Shown one piece after another: positions 7,840 to 55,002 of a DNA stretch of 64,000 nucleotides. Numbering within the stretch: position 1 is the first letter of the stretch; each line of letters opens with the position of its first letter. The notes beneath the pieces were generated by a model. It made no database searches, was not told the DNA's origin, and saw nothing but the letters and a program-made list of their open reading frames with translations. The DNA lies in NCBI RefSeq assembly GCF_011947195.1, contig NZ_JAATVY010000001.1:434001-498000 (forward strand), in the 5' to 3' direction. Source of the stretch: Planosporangium thailandense. Its GTDB lineage: Bacteria > Actinomycetota > Actinomycetes > Mycobacteriales > Micromonosporaceae. The position numbers and the translations under genes were made by a program.

Positions 7840-8664
7840 ATGGTCATCATCGACGCCCTCATCGCCGCCGCCGCCTTCGGCGCGGTGTGGACCGCGGCGA
7901 GCGCGCGGATCGTCAAGCAGTACGAGCGGGGCCTCGTCTTCCGGTTCGGCCGCATCCGGGAAGGTGTCCGGGCGCCGGGCCTGGCGTTGATCACGCCGGG
8001 GCTCGACCGGTTCCGCAAGGTCAACATGCAGATTGTCACGCTGCCCGTCCCCGCGCAGGACGGCATCACCCGCGACAACGTCACCGTCAAGGTCGACGCG
8101 GTCGTGTACTTCAAGGTCGTCGACCCGGTCCGGGCCATCGTCAACGTGCAGGACTACCGTTTCGCGGTACTCCAGGTGGCGCAGACCTCGCTGCGCTCGA
8201 TCATCGGCAAGAGCGATCTGGACGACCTGCTCGCCAACCGCGAGCGGCTCAACCAGGGCCTCGAAATCATGATCGACAGCCCGGCGCTCGACTGGGGCAT
8301 CCACATCGACCGGGTCGAGATCAAGGACGTCTCGCTGCCGGAGTCGATGAAGCGCTCGATGTCGCGCCAGGCCGAGGCGGAGCGGGAACGGCGCGCCCGG
8401 ATCATCTCGGCCGACGGCGAGTTGCAGGCCTCGCACAAGCTGTCGGAGGCGGCGGCCGCCATGCAGCGCACCCCGGCGGCGCTTCAGCTGCGCCTGCTGG
8501 AGACGGTCGTGGAGGTCGCGGCCGAGAAGAACTCGACCCTGGTGCTGCCGTTCCCGGTCGAACTGCTGCGGTTCCTGGAGAAGGAACCCAACGGGGACGC
8601 GGACGTCGCCTCCCTGGCCGATCTCGACGCCGTCAAATCGGCGTCGCGCCGAACGTCCGGATAG
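7840..8664 (+). CDS. slipin / SPFH (band 7) membrane protein
   Basis: A 274-residue stomatin-like protein. One N-terminal hydrophobic segment (residues 1-20, MVIIDALIAAAAFGAVWTAA) is followed by the SPFH core. The core carries the slipin signatures YERGLVFRFGRI, ITPGLDRFRKVN, DNVTVKVDAVVYFKV and LDDLLANRERLN. A helical segment rich in Ala, Glu and Arg follows (SMSRQAEAERERRARIISAD), then PFPVELLRFLE near the C-terminus. Such proteins scaffold membrane microdomains. No NfeD-type protease partner gene is adjacent; the nearest gene is the SDR 11 bases downstream, possibly co-transcribed. Confidence 0.88.
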   Translation: MVIIDALIAAAAFGAVWTAASARIVKQYERGLVFRFGRIREGVRAPGLALITPGLDRFRKVNMQIVTLPVPAQDGITRDNVTVKVDAVVYFKVVDPVRAIVNVQDYRFAVLQVAQTSLRSIIGKSDLDDLLANRERLNQGLEIMIDSPALDWGIHIDRVEIKDVSLPESMKRSMSRQAEAERERRARIISADGELQASHKLSEAAAAMQRTPAALQLRLLETVVEVAAEKNSTLVLPFPVELLRFLEKEPNGDADVASLADLDAVKSASRRTSG

Positions 8665-8675
8665 GAGTGTCCTCA

Positions 8676-9458
8676 GTGCTGGATGACACCGAGGTGCGGG
8701 CGAGCGCACCGGTGCGGACCCTGGAGAACCGGGTTGCGCTCGTGACCGGCGGCTCCGGCGGTATCGGCTCGGCGCTGGTGCGCAGGCTGGCCGGGGCGGG
8801 CGTCGATGTAGCTCTCACGTACAGCGGCCATGCCGAGGACGCCGAGAAGCTCGCCGACGAGGTCCGCGCGACCGGCCGCCGGGCGGTCGTCATGCAGGCC
8901 GACTTCGCCGACCCGGATACGCCGCTGCGCGTGGTAACGCAGGCGGAGGAGCAGCTTCGCGCCGGGCTGGCCATCCTGGTGGCCGCCGCGGGGGAGGCCA
9001 GGGTGACGTCCTGGAAGGAGGTCGACCTCGACCTGTGGGACCGGACCCAGGCGGTCAACCTGCGGGCGCCGTTCTTCCTCACCCAACTCGTCCTGCAAGG
9101 CATGATCGGCCGCGGCTTCGGACGGATCCTGTACTTCTCCTCGATCGCCGCGCACAACGGCGGCGTCGTCGGCCCGCACTACGCCTCCAGCAAGGCGGCG
9201 CTGCACGGGCTGGTGCACTTCCTGGCTCCGCGGGTGGCCGACGAGGGCGTCACGGTCAACGCGATCGCGCCGGCGCTCATCGCCGGTACCCACATGCTGC
9301 CGGCGAACCCGCACGACCCCGAAGCCCTGCCGCTGCCGATCCCGGTCGGCCGGCTCGGCACCACCGACGAGGTGGCCGACCTGGCGCTGGCGATGCTGCG
9401 CAACGGGTACCTCACCAACAAGGTCATCGGCCTGGACGGCGGCCTGTACCCGGACTGA
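8676..9458 (+). CDS. SDR-family oxidoreductase (FabG-like)
   Basis: A 260-residue Rossmann-fold short-chain dehydrogenase. The cofactor motif is VTGGSGGIGSALV, the NAG-type motif is altered to VAAAGEA, the catalytic set is SS in LYFSSIAAHNG with Y-x-x-x-K in HYASSKAALHG, and the C-terminus is VIGLDGGLYPD. GTG 8676 has an ataggag Shine-Dalgarno eight bases upstream. It follows the slipin by 11 bases. Substrate not recognisable. Confidence 0.88.
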   Translation: MLDDTEVRASAPVRTLENRVALVTGGSGGIGSALVRRLAGAGVDVALTYSGHAEDAEKLADEVRATGRRAVVMQADFADPDTPLRVVTQAEEQLRAGLAILVAAAGEARVTSWKEVDLDLWDRTQAVNLRAPFFLTQLVLQGMIGRGFGRILYFSSIAAHNGGVVGPHYASSKAALHGLVHFLAPRVADEGVTVNAIAPALIAGTHMLPANPHDPEALPLPIPVGRLGTTDEVADLALAMLRNGYLTNKVIGLDGGLYPD

Positions 9459-10260
9459 CCCGGCACAGCGCGGCCGCGACCGCGCGCACCGCCACCGCGC
9501 GCAGGTGCGCGTCGCGCCGGACCCGCCAGCTCAGCTCGAGATGGACGAAGGTGGTGCCGAGGCGTACGGCGGTCGACGCCTGGACGTTCCCGATGCCCTC
9601 GAGCCGGCCCCGGCTGTCCCGCCACGGCTCGCAGGTGGCCAGGCCGGCCTCCCGTAACGTCGTGGCCACCCGTACCGCCGCGGGCGTCGCCGTCCGGGTG
9701 CCCGTCGAGACCACAGCGTCCAGGCCGGGGAGGCTGGCGTCGGCGAAGCCGTGCAGTTGTATCTGGGGCAGGCGCCGGTTGGCCGCCTCCGCTGCCAGGG
9801 CGTGGAACAGGGACCGGTCGTTGTGGGCGGCATCCGCGGCCCCGTTGCCGGCCCGGCGGTGCGCGCCGGCCACCACCAGGATCGCGCCCGGGGCGAGCCG
9901 GAACAGGTGGACGCCGATCCGCTCGGTACGCAGGTCGGAGTTGGGGTGCGGCACCTCGACGGCCAGGCGTACGGGCACCGACGGGTCGACCAGCACGACG
10001 CCGGCGGCCCGGCCGTCGTCCGGCCGGCCGGCGTACATCGTGTACCGGCGGCCGGTGGCGGCGTCCACGCCGCCGGAGCCGGAGAAGCCGAGTGCGACCA
10101 GTGCGGTGGACGCCGCGTACGGGTCGCTGCCGGGCGCCGTGAGGTGGGTCATCGCGGTCGCGGCCAGTCGCCGCTCGGCCGGCGACGGGTCGCGGTACGG
10201 GCCGGCCGGATCAAGCGCCGCCGCGAACGCGGCGACGTGTTCTTCGAGGTCGCAGCCCAC
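9424..10260 (-). CDS. conserved protein of unknown function with metal-hydrolase-like motifs
   Basis: A 278-residue cytoplasmic protein with no signal peptide. Conserved-looking stretches are AVEVPHPNSDLRTE, GAILVVAGAHRRAG, AAHNDRSLFHALA and QIQLHGFADASLPG. The spaced His, Asp and Glu residues (EVPHPNSD, GAHRR, AHND, LHGF) suggest a metal-dependent hydrolase fold distantly like poly-gamma-glutamate hydrolases or N-formylglutamate amidohydrolases; this is inference. It is convergent with the SDR gene and overlaps its end by 35 bases. Start GTG 10260. Confidence 0.65.
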   Translation of the reverse strand: MGCDLEEHVAAFAAALDPAGPYRDPSPAERRLAATAMTHLTAPGSDPYAASTALVALGFSGSGGVDAATGRRYTMYAGRPDDGRAAGVVLVDPSVPVRLAVEVPHPNSDLRTERIGVHLFRLAPGAILVVAGAHRRAGNGAADAAHNDRSLFHALAAEAANRRLPQIQLHGFADASLPGLDAVVSTGTRTATPAAVRVATTLREAGLATCEPWRDSRGRLEGIGNVQASTAVRLGTTFVHLELSWRVRRDAHLRAVAVRAVAAALCRVSPGTGRRPGR

Positions 10261-41818: not shown

Positions 41819-41978
41819 TGGTCATCGCAGGTGGCGCCGGTGCAGACCCGCCGAATCGCGCAATGCGAGCCGGGGACCCACCGTACGTCTGGGGTGAATC
41901 CGCGGGCTGCTGGCCAGCGGTAGGGCGACCTACGCGCCCGAATCCGTCAGCTAACCCGGTAGGCGGCAGCGTAAGGAG
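41819..41978 (+). ncRNA. cyclic di-AMP riboswitch (ydaO/yuaA type)
   Basis: The stretch contains, in order, the conserved blocks of the ydaO-yuaA aptamer: agccggggaccca (41868-41880), ggggtgaatc (41891-41900), gtagggcgacc (41920-41930), cccgaatccgtcagctaacc (from 41937), taggcggca (41960-41968) and gtaaggag (41971-41978). The last block supplies the Shine-Dalgarno for a 29-codon frame at 41988. In actinobacteria this riboswitch normally turns off cell-wall hydrolase and resuscitation-factor genes when c-di-AMP is high. The nearest sizeable downstream gene is the exported C39-like peptidase at 42346. Confidence 0.85.
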
Positions 41979-41987
41979 ATCAGATCA

Positions 41988-49495: not shown

Positions 49496-50280
49496 CTTCG
49501 CCCGTACCCGCTGCCGAGGAGGCGGAGCTTCTCCAGCGGCTGACGGACCTGCTGGACACGGTCCGACGCAAGACCACGGAGCTGGTCGACACCGTCGACC
49601 GGACGCTCCGCGCGCTGCCGGCCGCCGTCGCGGCGCCGATCCTGGCGGCCACGCGGCGGCTGGTGGACCTGGTGCGGCAGGCGTACGACGCCCTCACCGA
49701 GATCCTGGGCAGCATGGGTTCGCCGTCGACGCTGTGGCGCCACGCCGCCGCCTGGAGCGACAACGTCGGCGGCCCGGTCAGCGGACTGGCGTCCGACGCG
49801 GACCTCGACCGGGTCCAGGCCGACGACAGTTGGACCGGGGAAGCGGCCGACGCGTACCGGAACGCGCTGGGCCCGCAGAAGGCCGCTCTGGCCGCGGTCA
49901 AGGCCACACTCGCCGACGGCATCGCGACCGCGCTGTCGGAGACGGCCAAGGCGATCGTGGTGTTCTGGGGCCTGCTCGTGGCGGGGCTGGCCGCCCTGGT
50001 CACCGGGATCATCGGCGCCATCGCCTCGAGCGCGACCATCGTCGGCCTGCCCGCCGGCCCGTTCGTCGCGGCCGGCGCGGCGGCCGCCTTCCTCGCGTGC
50101 TTCTTCGCCGGTGGAATGAACCTGCGCAGCGCCGCGGCGGACCAGAACGTCAGGCTCCGGCAGCGGCTCGACGACGACACCAGCTTCCGGGACGGGCACT
50201 GGCCCCGGCCGGCCGCCGACCCGTCGGACGGCTCGATCGGCGACGGCACACCCAGCGGCTGGCGCCTCAAGGGCGCGTGA
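49492..50280 (+). CDS. WXG100-like protein with hydrophobic C-terminal half
   Basis: A 262-residue protein. The first 150 residues are helical with DDSWTGEAADAYRNAL, a clear WXG turn between two helices. Two hydrophobic stretches follow (IVVFWGLLVAGLAALVTGIIGAIASS and GPFVAAGAAAAFLACFFAGG), then a hydrophilic tail. This combination of WXG and membrane helices is common in Micromonosporaceae type VII-associated operons. Third gene of the YbaB trio (ATGA overlap). Confidence 0.75.
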   Translation: MTSPVPAAEEAELLQRLTDLLDTVRRKTTELVDTVDRTLRALPAAVAAPILAATRRLVDLVRQAYDALTEILGSMGSPSTLWRHAAAWSDNVGGPVSGLASDADLDRVQADDSWTGEAADAYRNALGPQKAALAAVKATLADGIATALSETAKAIVVFWGLLVAGLAALVTGIIGAIASSATIVGLPAGPFVAAGAAAAFLACFFAGGMNLRSAAADQNVRLRQRLDDDTSFRDGHWPRPAADPSDGSIGDGTPSGWRLKGA

Positions 50281-50678
50281 CCGGTCACGTCCCGGCCGAC
50301 CGGTGTCCACCTTCCGTGGGTGGCGGCGGGGCCGATGGTTGTCGCCCGCCCGGCGTGCAACGGCCGTCCGGCAAGGGGACGCCGGGTTGCTGAACGGATG
50401 CAATGCTCTACGGCGTCGGAGGCACGACGGCGCTCCGATGAGCGAGCTGAGATCCGTCAGGCGTACCTGGTCGCCCGAGGCCTGGCGGGGAGTGAGAGGC
50501 GAAACCCGCGCTCTGAAACGTCAGTCCCCGTGCCGGGGCCGCGGAGCGCGGTCAAGCGGCCAGGTCAACCGTTGACCTGCCGTTTTCCGAGCCACAGCGC
50601 GCCATGGCCGGGGAGGCTCCGTGGGCGGTGACCCATCGCACGCGGAGCCGATCGAGAGGCCATCGGAGCTACAACTTC
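50281..50678 (+). other. intergenic leader of the arginine decarboxylase operon
   Basis: About 400 bases with no convincing gene. It holds the palindrome at 50561-50579 and ends with a short leader to ATG 50679. No clear terminator for the upstream trio was seen. Confidence 0.45.
50561..50579. promoter_or_regulatory. 9-1-9 perfect inverted repeat upstream of the decarboxylase
   Basis: caggtcaac-c-gttgacctg has perfect 9-base arms around one base and contains TTGACC, so it may overlap a -35 element. It lies 99 bases upstream of the decarboxylase start and is a good candidate operator. Confidence 0.6.
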
Positions 50679-51185
50679 ATGTTCAACTCAGCGGTTTACG
50701 ACCAGATCCCTGTCGTCCGTGCCACGGGGACCGGCGGCACCACCCTGTCGGCGTTCCACGACGCCCTCGTCGCTGTCGACCTCGGGTTCTACAACCTGGT
50801 CCGGCTGTCCAGCGTGATCCCGCCGAACACGGGTGTCGACACGACCGGAAAGACGCCGGTGCCGGTGGGGCAGTGGGGTGACCGGCTCTACTGCGTCTAC
50901 GCGCAGCAGAGCGCGACCTCCCCGGGCGAGCAGGCGTGGGCCGGCATCGGATGGGTGCGGCGCCACGACGGCGGCGGCGGGCTGTTCGTCGAGCACGAGG
51001 GCACCAGCGAGGGGTTCGTGGTCAACGCGATCCGTACCAGCCTGCGCGACCTCGTCGCCGGCCGGGAGGACGAGTTCACCGCGCCCGAGTGGGCGGTCAA
51101 CGGCGCGGTCTGCACCGACCAGCCGGTGTGTTCCCTCGTGGTCGCCGCGTACGAGACGGCGCCGTGGGTGGGGATCGTCCGATGA
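50679..51185 (+). CDS. pyruvoyl-dependent arginine decarboxylase
   Basis: A 168-residue proenzyme. The family cleaves itself between two serines; the second becomes a pyruvoyl group that decarboxylates arginine to agmatine. Here ATGTGGTTLSAFHDALVAVDLGFYNLVRLSSVIPPNT matches the archaeal enzyme's G-x-T-x-L-x-AF and N-L-x-R-x-SS-x-x-PP pattern, with cleavage predicted between Ser44 and Ser45. GGLFVEHEGTS supplies the conserved acidic motif. ATG 50679 is preferred (ggag 12 bases upstream); the frame is open to 50604. The gene is coupled by ATGA to two acyltransferase-like genes, so the amine product is probably acylated. Arginine as substrate is inferred from the family. Confidence 0.85.
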   Translation: MFNSAVYDQIPVVRATGTGGTTLSAFHDALVAVDLGFYNLVRLSSVIPPNTGVDTTGKTPVPVGQWGDRLYCVYAQQSATSPGEQAWAGIGWVRRHDGGGGLFVEHEGTSEGFVVNAIRTSLRDLVAGREDEFTAPEWAVNGAVCTDQPVCSLVVAAYETAPWVGIVR

Positions 51186-51793
51186 AGCTCACCATCGAGA
51201 CCGTTCTAGGCGCGTCCGCGACCGCGGCCTTCTACCCGCTGTACGTCGCCGCGTTCGAGCCCATCCGCACCAGGGCCGCCGCCCGCCACCTGCTGACCGC
51301 CGAGGAGTTCGAGGCGGAGATGGCCGATGAGCGGATCGACAAGTACGTCGTATGGGACGACAACGGCGAACCCGTGGCGCTGTCCACCCTGACGACGGAC
51401 CTCGCGGCGGTGCCCTGGGTCAGCCCGGAGTACTTCGCCGCGCGCTACCCGGACCGGGTCGCCCGCCGGGCGGTCCACTACCTCGGGTACACGCTGGTCC
51501 ACCCCGACCACGCCCGCAACGGCGTGTTCAACCTGATGATCGAGGCGATCGAGCGGCGCTGCGCCGACGCGCGCGGGGTGATGGCGTTCGACGTCTGCTC
51601 GTACAACGACGCGCGCAGCGTCGGCCGCCGGATCGAGCGGCTGGGCCGGTACGACGGGGTGACCCTGTCGGCGGTGGACGTGCAGACGTACTACGCGGCG
51701 ACGTTCGACGCGCCGCTGCCCGAGGCCGAAATCGAGGCGCCGCGGCCCGCGGCCACCGTCGACACGTCGCTGACCGCTGGCGCCGCCCGATGA
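51182..51793 (+). CDS. GNAT-like acyltransferase (decarboxylase operon)
   Basis: A 203-residue protein with a GNAT-type core: LTIETVLGASATAAFYPLYVAAFEPIRTRAA at the N-terminus, AVHYLGYTLVHPDHARNGVFNLMIEAIERRC as the acyl-CoA-binding strand-loop-helix, and a C-terminal tail rich in Ala and Pro. DVCSYNDARSVGRRIERLG follows where GNAT proteins close the active site. ATGA overlaps on both sides (51182-51185, 51790-51793). Probable role: transfer of an acyl group to the amine made by the decarboxylase. Confidence 0.72.
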   Translation: MKLTIETVLGASATAAFYPLYVAAFEPIRTRAAARHLLTAEEFEAEMADERIDKYVVWDDNGEPVALSTLTTDLAAVPWVSPEYFAARYPDRVARRAVHYLGYTLVHPDHARNGVFNLMIEAIERRCADARGVMAFDVCSYNDARSVGRRIERLGRYDGVTLSAVDVQTYYAATFDAPLPEAEIEAPRPAATVDTSLTAGAAR

Positions 51794-52596
51794 ACGCCGG
51801 GGTGAGCGTCGGGCCGCAGCGGGCCGGGGAGCGCCGCACGGCAGACGGCGATGTCCGCGTCGTCAGCCTCGCCGACCGTCCGGGGCTGGTGGCGTCCATC
51901 CCGGACGTGCTCGCCTCGCGTTGGCCGATGTTCATGCTCGCCGGCCGTCCGGGTCACGACGTCGATCTCGTCGAACTGGTGATGCGCACTCCCGTGCACC
52001 AGGTGGTGCTGCTCGACGCCGCCGACGAGGTGCTCGGTGCGGGGCTGTCGGTGCCGCTCGACTGGGACGGCACGACCGAGGGGCTGCCGGCGGGCTGGGA
52101 CGGCGCGGTGCAGGCGAGCGCCGACCTGCTGGCACGCGGCGGCACGCCGAACACGGCGTGCGCACTGTCGATCACCCTCAAGCCGACGGCGGCGGGGCGG
52201 GGGTACGCGTCGAGCATGATCAACGCGCTCAAGCGGGCCGCCGCGACGGCCGGAGCCTCCGCGCTGATCGCGCCGGTCCGCCCGGTCCTCAAAACCCGGT
52301 ACCCGCTGACGCCGACGGCGGACTACCTCACCTGGCGCACCGACGAGGGCGAGGTCTTCGACCCGTGGCTGCGGCTGCACCTCGGGCTCGGCGGGACGGT
52401 ACGCGGCGTCGCGTACCCCTCGATGACGATCACCGGCAGCATCGCGGAGTGGCGCAGTTGGGTCGGGCTGGCCCTGCCGGGCAGCGGCGAGTACGTGATC
52501 CCGGGCGGCATCGCGCCGCTGGTCGTCGACCGGGTGGCGGACACCGGCGTGTACCGGGAGCCCAACGTCTGGGTGGTGCACGACACCGAAAGCTGA
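51790..52596 (+). CDS. acyltransferase-like protein (decarboxylase operon)
   Basis: A 268-residue soluble protein. HQVVLLDAADEVLGAGLSVPLDW and ACALSITLKPTAAGRGYASSMINALKRAAATAG look like GNAT strands 2-4 with the AGRGYA acyl-CoA loop; then SALIAPVRPVLKTRYPLTPTADYLTWRTDEGEVFDPWLRLHLGLGGTVRGVAYPSMTITG. This second part resembles GNAT-related acyltransferases acting on larger amines. Substrate unknown. It is the last gene of the three-gene operon; the GGDEF-EAL gene begins 81 bases later. Confidence 0.7.
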   Translation: MNAGVSVGPQRAGERRTADGDVRVVSLADRPGLVASIPDVLASRWPMFMLAGRPGHDVDLVELVMRTPVHQVVLLDAADEVLGAGLSVPLDWDGTTEGLPAGWDGAVQASADLLARGGTPNTACALSITLKPTAAGRGYASSMINALKRAAATAGASALIAPVRPVLKTRYPLTPTADYLTWRTDEGEVFDPWLRLHLGLGGTVRGVAYPSMTITGSIAEWRSWVGLALPGSGEYVIPGGIAPLVVDRVADTGVYREPNVWVVHDTES

Positions 52597-52677
52597 CGGT
52601 CGTTTTCGGTTCATCGCGGGGCGTACCTGCCGATCAAGGTCGTAAGGCACCACTCGCGAGAACCAAGGGAAGACCGC

Positions 52678-55002
52678 ATGCTCCGGCTCAGCCGTACCCC
52701 GAGCCCGGCGTCGCCGCCCGGGCCTCGATCCGCGGTGCCCGCCTGGGCCTTTCTGGCCTTCGGCGGGCTCGCGGCCGTGCTGTACGCCGTTGTGCCGGTC
52801 GCGCTGACCCCGCCGCTGTTCCTGGCCGTGGCGGTGGCCTCCATCGTGGCCACCGCCATCGGCGCGCGCCGGCATCAGGTCGCGGGCGTCCGGCGCCCGT
52901 GGTGGGCGATGGTCGCCGCGGAGACCCTGTTCCTCGGCGGCGCGGTGCTGCGGGCGGTCATCCCGGGCGTCGACGCCACCCCGCCCGGCCCGGCGGCGCT
53001 CATCCCGGACGTGCTGGTCGTCCCTGGTTATCTGTGCTGGGCGTACGCCGTCATCGACATGCTGCGTCGACGCCGGCCCACCAAGGCCGACCCGGCCGCC
53101 GCCGACGCGCTCCTCATCGGGCTCGGCGCCACGCTGGTCGTCTGGGTGTTCCTGCTGGGGCCGCGCATCGCCGCGGCGCCGGAGTCCACCGCCTCGCAGG
53201 TCGCGGCCGCGTTTTTCCCCGTCGTCGACGTGGTGCTGATGGTGTTCGCGGCACAGTTGATGTTCGCCGACGCCGCCCGGGTGCCGGCGCTCTGGCTGCT
53301 CGGCGCCTCCGCGACGGTCATGTTCGTCGGCGATCTGATGTACGCGGTCCACGAGGACGGCGTGGATTCGGGCAGTCCGCTGGTGCGACTGTTCGACATC
53401 TTCAGCCTGCTGGCGTACGCCATGATGGCCGCCGCCGCGCTGCACCCGACCATGCGTACGCTCACGGAGCGACAGTCGGTCGCCCTGCGCTACTTCGGGA
53501 TCGTGCGTACCGCCGGCATCGCGACCGTCCTGGTCACGCCGACCGTCCTCGCCATGGTGGCCCCGCCGTCGACCGGCTGGAACGGCGCGGTGCGGCTGGC
53601 GCTGTCGTTCCTGCTCACGGTGACGGTCGTCATCCGCCTCGTGCGGGCCAACAACTCCCAGACCCGCGCCGAGCGGGCGGCCCGGCACCGGGCGACGCAC
53701 GACGCCCTCACCGATCTCCCCAACCGGGAACTGCTCACCGAGACCATCTCGCGCCTGTCCGAGGCGGACGAGGGGCAGGAGATCACCCTGCTCTTCATCG
53801 ACCTGGACCGGTTCAAGATGGTCAACGACAGCTGGGGCCACGCGGTCGGCGACGAGCTGTTGTGCGCGGTCGCGGCCCGGCTGCGCACCGCCGTGCGCGG
53901 CGAGGACCTGGTGTGCCGGGTGGGCGGCGACGAGTTCGTCGTCCTGATCGCGTCGACGACCGACTCCTCGCAGGTGGCGTCCCTGACCGAACGCCTGCTC
54001 GACGACTTCGCCGAGCCGTTCGACCTCTCCGTGGGCAGCGTCGTCATCACCCCCTCGATCGGCGTCGCGTCCTCGGACGGGGCCACCGAGGCGCTCGAGC
54101 TGATCCGGGACGCCGACACGGCGATGTACAAGGCGAAAAGCTCCGGGCGCAACGGGTACGCGTTCTTCGACCAGATCCTGCACGAGCAGGTGCGCACCCG
54201 GGTCGAGATCGAACAGGCGCTGCGCGGCGCGTTGGACCGGGGCGAGCTGTCGGTGCACTACCAGCCGATCGTCGACCTGGCCAACGACGAGCTGACCGGT
54301 TTCGAGGCGCTGATGCGCTGGGATCACCCGCAGCTGGGCCGGGTGTCACCGCTGGAGTTCATCCCGATCGCGGAGGACACCGGGCTCATCGTGGAGTACG
54401 GCGCGTGGCTGCTGGAGGAGGCGGCGAACCAGCTCGTCCGCTGGCGTGCGGCGCGGGCCGATGATCTCCCGCCGCTGCACATCTCCGTGAACATCTCGGT
54501 CCGCCAGCTGCGCGACTCGGCGCTGGTCGGCGTCGTGCGCCGGGCGCTGCGCCGCACCGGCCTACCGGCCTCGACGCTGTGGCTGGAGATCACCGAGTCC
54601 GGCGTGATGGAGGACCCCGAGACCGCTCTGGCCACCCTGCGGGCGCTGCGCGCGCTCGGCGTCAGGCTGGCCATCGACGACTTCGGTACCGGGTACGCGT
54701 CGCTGAACTATCTGCGGTCCATCCCGGCCCGGATCGTGAAGATCGACCGGTCGTTCGTGGCCGGTGTCGGCGAGGGCAGCCACAACGAGGCGATCGTGAA
54801 GGCCGTGGTCGCCATGGCGCACGCGCTGGGCCAGCGGGTCGTGGCCGAGGGGGTCGAGACGGTCGTGCAGCGGGACTGGCTGCGTGCGTACGGCTGCGAC
54901 CTGGTGCAGGGCTGGCTCTACGGCGCGCCGCGGTCGGCGGACGCGCAGGTCGCCTGGATGGACCGGACCGCGACGGCGCTGCAGCTCGATCACCTTTCGT
55001 AG
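52678..55002 (+). CDS. membrane GGDEF-EAL protein (c-di-GMP turnover)
   Basis: A 774-residue bifunctional-type protein. N-terminal half (1-325) has about eight to ten hydrophobic segments, a membrane sensor without a recognised family. GGDEF (residues 416-420, VGGDEFVVL) shows an intact diguanylate cyclase site; EAL (543-545, TGFEALMRW) with DDFGTGYASLNYL and VAEGVET shows an intact phosphodiesterase domain. Both activities may be present, or one may be regulatory. It lies directly after the decarboxylase operon, but its own gggaag ribosome site and 81-base gap leave co-transcription open. Confidence 0.93.
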   Translation: MLRLSRTPSPASPPGPRSAVPAWAFLAFGGLAAVLYAVVPVALTPPLFLAVAVASIVATAIGARRHQVAGVRRPWWAMVAAETLFLGGAVLRAVIPGVDATPPGPAALIPDVLVVPGYLCWAYAVIDMLRRRRPTKADPAAADALLIGLGATLVVWVFLLGPRIAAAPESTASQVAAAFFPVVDVVLMVFAAQLMFADAARVPALWLLGASATVMFVGDLMYAVHEDGVDSGSPLVRLFDIFSLLAYAMMAAAALHPTMRTLTERQSVALRYFGIVRTAGIATVLVTPTVLAMVAPPSTGWNGAVRLALSFLLTVTVVIRLVRANNSQTRAERAARHRATHDALTDLPNRELLTETISRLSEADEGQEITLLFIDLDRFKMVNDSWGHAVGDELLCAVAARLRTAVRGEDLVCRVGGDEFVVLIASTTDSSQVASLTERLLDDFAEPFDLSVGSVVITPSIGVASSDGATEALELIRDADTAMYKAKSSGRNGYAFFDQILHEQVRTRVEIEQALRGALDRGELSVHYQPIVDLANDELTGFEALMRWDHPQLGRVSPLEFIPIAEDTGLIVEYGAWLLEEAANQLVRWRAARADDLPPLHISVNISVRQLRDSALVGVVRRALRRTGLPASTLWLEITESGVMEDPETALATLRALRALGVRLAIDDFGTGYASLNYLRSIPARIVKIDRSFVAGVGEGSHNEAIVKAVVAMAHALGQRVVAEGVETVVQRDWLRAYGCDLVQGWLYGAPRSADAQVAWMDRTATALQLDHLS

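Follow-up and report, generated by a model that had tools for sequence, protein, structure and literature searches.

A four-gene operon of the soil actinobacterium Planosporangium thailandense, headed by a predicted riboswitch, may encode a hitherto undescribed signalling circuit based on a small molecule. We analysed a 64,000-nucleotide stretch of this genome (i.e., "the window"; the genome around it comprises 7.0 Mb in 114 contigs), in which genes for a divergent pyruvoyl decarboxylase (G1) and two GNAT-like proteins (G2 and G3) are followed by a gene for a GGDEF-EAL protein with a transmembrane (TM) N-terminal domain (G4) (Table 1). In our preferred reading, to which we assign a probability of roughly 40%, the locus is a c-di-GMP-linked signalling operon under the control of the aptamer, and a product of G1 and the GNAT proteins is read by G4. 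Among the literature matches listed, the titles and abstract openings held no prior description of this gene set; subscription journals lay mostly outside the coverage.

Table 1. Features of the operon and its leader (positions within the window)
Feature	Position	Strand	Basis
G1, divergent PvlArgDC-family pyruvoyl decarboxylase	50679-51185	+	Pfam, alignment, tree
G2, GNAT-fold protein with a non-canonical P-loop	51182-51793	+	Pfam, structure model, alignment
G3, GNAT-like protein; family common in Micromonosporaceae, fused to G2 in L070	51790-52596	+	Pfam, model, neighbourhoods
G4, ~10-TM N-terminal domain followed by GGDEF and EAL	52678-55002	+	Pfam, hhalign, motifs
Predicted c-di-GMP-II-type riboswitch aptamer, closest Rfam family RF03169	50434-50517	+	Rfam score, leaders of relatives
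Perfect 9-1-9 palindrome in the leader	50561-50579	no strand	Sequence; not conserved in L002/L003

The open reading frame coordinates place ATGA at both the G1/G2 and the G2/G3 junctions, in agreement with the first-pass annotation of this DNA, which had described a run of three overlapping genes at positions 50679 to 52596. On the basis of these overlaps, the three proteins would be made in matched amounts. The start codon of G1 (ATG at 50679) coincides with the aligned starts in Planosporangium flavigriseum (locus L003) and a Dactylosporangium MAG (L002). A gap of 81 bases separates G3 from G4, and the c-di-GMP enzyme that had been noticed downstream is indeed a GGDEF-EAL protein. G4 is a member of the same unit as G1, G2, and G3. 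The c-di-GMP link is a core property of the locus and not a bystander. No sigma-70 promoters or terminators were detected in a scan of positions 50280 to 52720, and no PHROGs matches were obtained for G1, G2, or G3 at an E value of ≤0.01.

G1 scored 70.6 bits against the Pfam family PvlArgDC (PF01862; cutoff, 22.7 bits), which upholds its initial designation as a pyruvoyl decarboxylase. A Ser-Ser pair forms the processing site, and the catalytic residues look complete. The processing Ser, the Asn (N47 in Methanocaldococcus jannaschii), and the Glu (E109) were present in all 40 aligned rows of the G1 family when inspected by eye (four short rows and two rows without a hit were dropped, and L091 and L092 were omitted as duplicates of L114 and L115), and the same residues were invariant in a separate alignment of 17 rows. 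According to a passage in PMC2720952, the carboxylate of Glu109 facilitates cleavage in the PvlArgDC family. Entries from M. jannaschii were matched in the G1 search, and G1 has in common with the classical enzymes (i.e., those of M. jannaschii and AaxB of Chlamydia) the PF01862 domain, the Ser site, and the conserved Asn and Glu. It differs from them in belonging to a separate clade, in carrying His for Asp at one position, and in having GNAT and signalling genes as neighbours. The phylogenetic tree set the 30 proteins of the G1 clade apart from 10 classical PvlArgDC proteins with support of 100/100.

The exchange of Asp for His concerns the position of D35 in M. jannaschii, which we take to be the guanidinium ligand. 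His was found there in 20 of the 40 rows in all, G1 of the window among them, and Asp in the other 20, which include all 10 classical rows. Agmatine is a doubtful product because of this exchange, and the substrate of G1 in this clade, judged from its sequence, may well not be arginine. The scores of G1 against the arginine decarboxylase equivalogs were far below the cutoffs as well (39.8 bits for TIGR00286, with a cutoff of 106.95, and 25 bits for PRK12398, with a cutoff of 207). Given the exchange and these scores, the suggestion that the locus converts arginine to an acyl-agmatine is unsupported, and we do not prefer acyl-agmatine to other amines as the product. PF01862 was detected in 27 of 300 genomes of the bacterial family (28 places) and in 20 of 396 genomes of the phylum (19 above the cutoff).

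G2 matched the Pfam GNAT family with 20.7 bits, exactly at the cutoff of 20.7, and Acetyltransf_1 was found at an E value of ≤0.01 in only two of nine G2 relatives. Searches with G2 and G3 returned no PDB sequence below an E value of 0.5 and no NCBIfam entry at an E value of ≤1. The AF2 model of G2 (pLDDT, 80.4) has a GNAT fold, as had been expected of an acyltransferase, and its best structural match was SpNatD (Z, 13.8 over 148 residues; rmsd, 2.6). The canonical acyl-CoA P-loop of GNAT proteins reads R/Q-x-x-G-x-G/A. The corresponding residues of G2 in the window are ARNGVF, and the last position, inspected by eye, is Phe in 43 of 55 G2 relatives and Gly or Ala in none of the 55. In view of this departure from the canonical motif, the catalytic acyltransferase role that had been proposed for G2 is unsupported. 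Matches to the G2 family occur in 114 of the 300 family genomes and are strongly structured by genus.

G3 scored 16.5 bits against Pfam GNAT, below the cutoff of 20.7. Almost all of its best 50 Foldseek rows were GNAT folds, with a low-confidence model (pLDDT, 53.9) as the query; a placement of G2 or G3 outside acyltransferase folds, which the first-pass annotation had named as refuting its proposal, was not seen in these models. The matches included agmatine and polyamine N-acetyltransferases, from which we do not argue for a substrate because the model is too poor. A profile comparison of G2 with G3 gave no significant match. Relatives of G3 were found in 140 of the 300 family genomes (versus 27 with PF01862) and mostly occur without G1; G3 therefore looks like a recruited component. 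In locus L070 (genome G076), G2 and G3 form one open frame (8530-9762, minus strand) upstream of G1. The G3 family is widespread (L162 to L167 are among its places), though its member in the window had no Pfam or NCBIfam match above the cutoff.

We examined 15 loci with both G1 and G2 (the window, L002 to L009, L059, L060, L066, L070, L076, and L114), with genes taken from mechanical, uncurated open reading frames and from an in-house gene finder based on codon-position GC. All three genes were present at 6 of the 15 loci, counting the G2-G3 fusion of L070, and the trio thus recurs beyond the window, as the first-pass annotation required of its proposal; the N-terminal type of G4 was also found at 6 of the 15. 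Pairs of G1 and G2 recur in several actinobacterial families beside genes for GGDEF-EAL, GGDEF, or histidine kinase proteins. In Nocardioides, Propionibacteriaceae, and Isoptericola (L005 to L009), a kinase gene lies just upstream of G1 or overlaps it, and a response regulator gene directly follows G2 at L005, L007, and L008 (kinase and regulator neighbours were checked with Pfam for L005, L008, and L009). The order at L114 is G1-G2-GGDEF. Overall, 12 of the 15 loci had a GGDEF/EAL or kinase core no more than 2 kb from G2, and the other three (L059, L060, and L070) had no sensor within 4 kb. Where G2 stands without G1, 27 of 40 loci had such a core at the same distance. These 40 loci comprise an initial set of 20 (11 places found in the phylum search and 9 in the family search), of which 17 had the core, and 20 others distributed over the family list, of which 10 had it. 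The 13 lone-G2 loci that lacked the core all belong to one genus, g29. For PF01862 genes without G2, the core was found at none of 15 loci within 4 kb of that gene. The loci are related by descent, which makes these neighbourhood counts non-independent, and the GGDEF/EAL background is not negligible; we therefore attach no probability to them.

G1 and G2 are not always found together. An adjacent G2 gene was present at 9 of the 28 family PF01862 places, and none was seen at the other 19 (15 with flanks of ~8 kb and 4 with flanks of 1.5 kb), from which it follows that the decarboxylase has a use without G2. One of these 19 places, L057, encodes a more classical-looking decarboxylase. In genus g29, genes near-identical to the G1 gene of L070 stand without G2 (L068, L071, and L073). 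These lone g29 genes and the 19 places without G2 are the main fact against an obligate trio. In the G2 tree, 13 of the 15 G1-linked G2 proteins fell into one clade (98/96) and those of L059 and L060 elsewhere, so the pairing of G1 with G2 probably arose at least twice.

The GGDEF, EAL-type, and RxxD I-site-like motifs of G4 are intact (with the I-site motif and spacing as generally known), and this fits a working c-di-GMP enzyme. Its ~10-TM N-terminal domain (window positions 52678 to 53661) occurs in 12 copies in this genome, which means that the domain is not a dedicated receptor; two copies submitted alone had no Pfam match. The same genome contains 77 GGDEF matches and 22 EAL matches. According to hhalign comparisons, the N-terminal TM domains of eight of nine groups of sensor proteins are related to each other (probability, ~88 to 100), with GGDEF-EAL, GGDEF, or kinase domains as outputs. 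Of the 27 sensors found near lone G2 genes, 21 fall into these eight groups. The ninth group (H), composed of HisKA_7TM kinases beside distant G2 relatives, proved unrelated to the other TM domains and was set aside. Distant G2 relatives also stand tail to tail with histidine kinase genes in other actinobacterial families (L122 to L126), and the kinases of L122 and L125 are of the HisKA_7TM type according to Pfam.

An alignment of the window leader with those of L003 and L002 revealed a near-invariant block 5' of G1. Rfam assigned this block, which had escaped the first-pass annotation, to c-di-GMP-II-GAG (RF03169) with 35.6 bits (E, 2.6e-5 for 471 bases searched and 9.3e-5 in a search of the whole genome), and its 3' end lies ~160 nt before the start of G1. 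Because the score of the window copy falls short of the gathering score of 40 bits, we label it c-di-GMP-II-type and not a certified member of RF03169. The leader of the L002 locus (L010) reached 40.8 bits, above the gathering score. That of the L003 locus (L011) scored 34.8 bits against the parent family c-di-GMP-II in one run and 37.6 bits against the GAG family in another. At the L076 locus (L015; genome G028), the leader matched part of the model with 27.7 bits (E, 0.4), and its letters are nearly identical to those of the other three operon leaders. We infer from these sequences a predicted c-di-GMP-II-type riboswitch, the ligand of which would be c-di-GMP.

Across the four operon leaders, pairing is maintained in 91 of 92 cells, with a seven-pair pseudoknot (strands GGUCGCC/GGCGAAACC) among the elements counted, and the main hairpin has one compensatory pair (U-A, U-G, or G-C). 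Sliding the partner strands lowered pairing to 34 to 45%; shuffles failed to separate the aptamer pairing (138/500), the four rows being near-identical. Free folding of the leader was uninformative (z, -0.35) with a fold model that excludes pseudoknots. When the four leaders were aligned with 12 other RF03169 copies, hand-picked from 30 fetched and with copies that have a GGTCACC core under-represented, 26 columns were invariant. The operon-linked copies thus have the aptamer core, pseudoknot, and helices of c-di-GMP-II-GAG riboswitches and differ from them in carrying GAGA, versus CAGU in 9 of the 12 other copies, and in preceding decarboxylase and GNAT genes. No such genes were noted by eye 3' of the 30 other copies. 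RF03169 was detected above the cutoff in 55 of the 300 family genomes, and the genome of the window has a second, stronger copy elsewhere (47.6 bits). Many of the 30 copies (L168 to L197) lie ahead of genes for predicted secreted or surface proteins or for collagen-like repeats, and some lie ahead of genes for nucleotide-sugar-type enzymes, as judged by eye from the N termini.

The aptamer core motif was found within 700 bases 5' of G1 at 4 of the 15 G1-G2 loci (the window, L002, L003, and L076). These are four of the five loci with the order G1-G2-G3-G4, the exception being L004. No aptamer was detected at L004, with its complete set of four genes, at L066, L070, L059, or L060, or at the G1-G2 loci of other families. 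Rfam searches gave no match at an E value of ≤1 on L005, L007, L008, L009, and L114 (L006 was left out) and no c-di-GMP element at an E value of ≤0.5 on L058, L059, L060, and L067.

The leader also contains the perfect 9-1-9 palindrome to which a regulatory role had been attributed. The palindrome itself is real: 0.01 matches were expected in the window even with three mismatches allowed. Its inner 17 bases occur at a single site in the genome, and the palindrome is not preserved in the two aligned relatives, L002 and L003, whereas the riboswitch-type aptamer is kept in them. The role as a regulator is therefore unsupported, and we dropped the palindrome as an operator candidate from the evidence.

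The combination of a pyruvoyl decarboxylase with a GNAT partner recalls PanD and PanZ. According to passages of PMC4410942, the GNAT protein PanZ acts on the pyruvoyl enzyme PanD as both an activator and an inhibitor, in a manner that depends on CoA. By analogy, G2 (perhaps with G3), instead of acting on the amine as an enzyme, could be a CoA-binding GNAT protein that triggers the maturation of G1 or inhibits it. Such control would suit the adjacency of G1 and G2 across several families, the non-canonical P-loop of G2, and the presence of a G2-family match somewhere in all 27 family genomes with PF01862 (lists compared by eye). We nevertheless consider it unlikely, since G2-family matches occur in more genomes than those of G1 (114 versus 27 of 300) and often lie beside a sensor gene without an adjacent G1, 19 of the 28 family PF01862 genes have no adjacent G2, and G1 appears to have a complete processing site and a complete set of catalytic residues. 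G1 also belongs to another pyruvoyl family (PvlArgDC) than PanD.

A second alternative is that G2 acts on the 10-TM GGDEF/EAL or kinase protein itself, either regulating it or serving as its protein acyltransferase, and that G1 and G3 are accessory metabolism recruited in some lineages. The frequency of sensor genes near lone G2 genes (27 of 40 loci), 21 of which fall into groups whose TM domains are related, is in line with this. We hold it to be doubtful, given that G1-G2 adjacency is seen in two distinct regions of the G2 tree and that the sensors, with their different output domains, share the TM part. Ordinary polyamine metabolism, in which agmatine from G1 is acetylated by the GNAT proteins for storage or detoxification and c-di-GMP serves only for biofilm-related control of expression, appears quite improbable. 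In its favour are the membership of G1 in PF01862, three matches to the ureohydrolase (arginase/agmatinase) family, of which two are strong, at other places in the genome, and the agmatine and polyamine N-acetyltransferases that the weak G3 model retrieved in the fold search. The Asp-to-His exchange at the guanidinium position of G1, the lack of a polyamine enzyme among six window proteins scanned around G1, and the kinase and response regulator neighbours in other families count against it.

If the locus is instead the c-di-GMP-linked signalling operon that we prefer, its parts would work together as follows. The c-di-GMP-II-type leader riboswitch would set the expression of G1, G2, and G3, and probably of G4. 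After cleaving itself to yield a pyruvoyl enzyme, G1 would decarboxylate an amino acid, and the amine would be acylated, otherwise processed, or bound by G2 with G3. The 10-TM domain of G4 would then read the resulting molecule, and G4 would make or destroy c-di-GMP, which the riboswitch would sense in turn to close the loop. Outside this bacterial family, G1 and G2 are paired with a histidine kinase gene or with a gene for a GGDEF protein that has a related TM domain. The data themselves comprise gene order, conservation, the sequence and pairing of the aptamer, the fold of G2, and motifs, from which the catalytic steps, the ligands of the aptamer and of the 10-TM domain, and the loop are inferred. 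A bolder version, which we regard as a long shot, is that Actinomycetota possess a new class of cell-cell or self-sensing signal, an N-acyl amine made by the pyruvoyl decarboxylase and a GNAT synthase and passed by 10-TM receptors to c-di-GMP or a phosphorelay, with riboswitch feedback.

Two known systems invite comparison. NspS-MbaA of Vibrio cholerae and Sinorhizobium meliloti reportedly links polyamines with c-di-GMP, NspS being a periplasmic binding protein. The operon described here differs in having candidate synthesis genes in the same operon, a 10-TM sensor part, and a riboswitch-type element at its head. LuxI-type acyl-homoserine-lactone synthases share a GNAT-like fold with G2, and LasI matched the G2 model (Z, 12.4 over 158 residues; rmsd, 3.5). 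G2 differs from them in having no LuxI-family Pfam match, and LasI, at rank 34, was tied with many other GNAT proteins.

If the preferred reading is true, amine metabolism would be tied to c-di-GMP in filamentous actinobacteria by one operon, in which a producer, a sensor, and an RNA sensor of a second messenger are combined. It would also provide functions for a PvlArgDC clade so far uncharacterised, for a GNAT family found in 114 of the 300 family genomes, and for the 10-TM domain. The reading can be tested directly with a few proteins and one RNA.

Another cyclic dinucleotide element was observed in the window. A c-di-AMP (ydaO/yuaA) riboswitch at positions 41839 to 41980 (plus strand; 93.1 bits) was the sole Rfam match above the gathering score in the window, and a similar c-di-AMP riboswitch lies 3' of the lone G1 gene in L067 (8711-8852).
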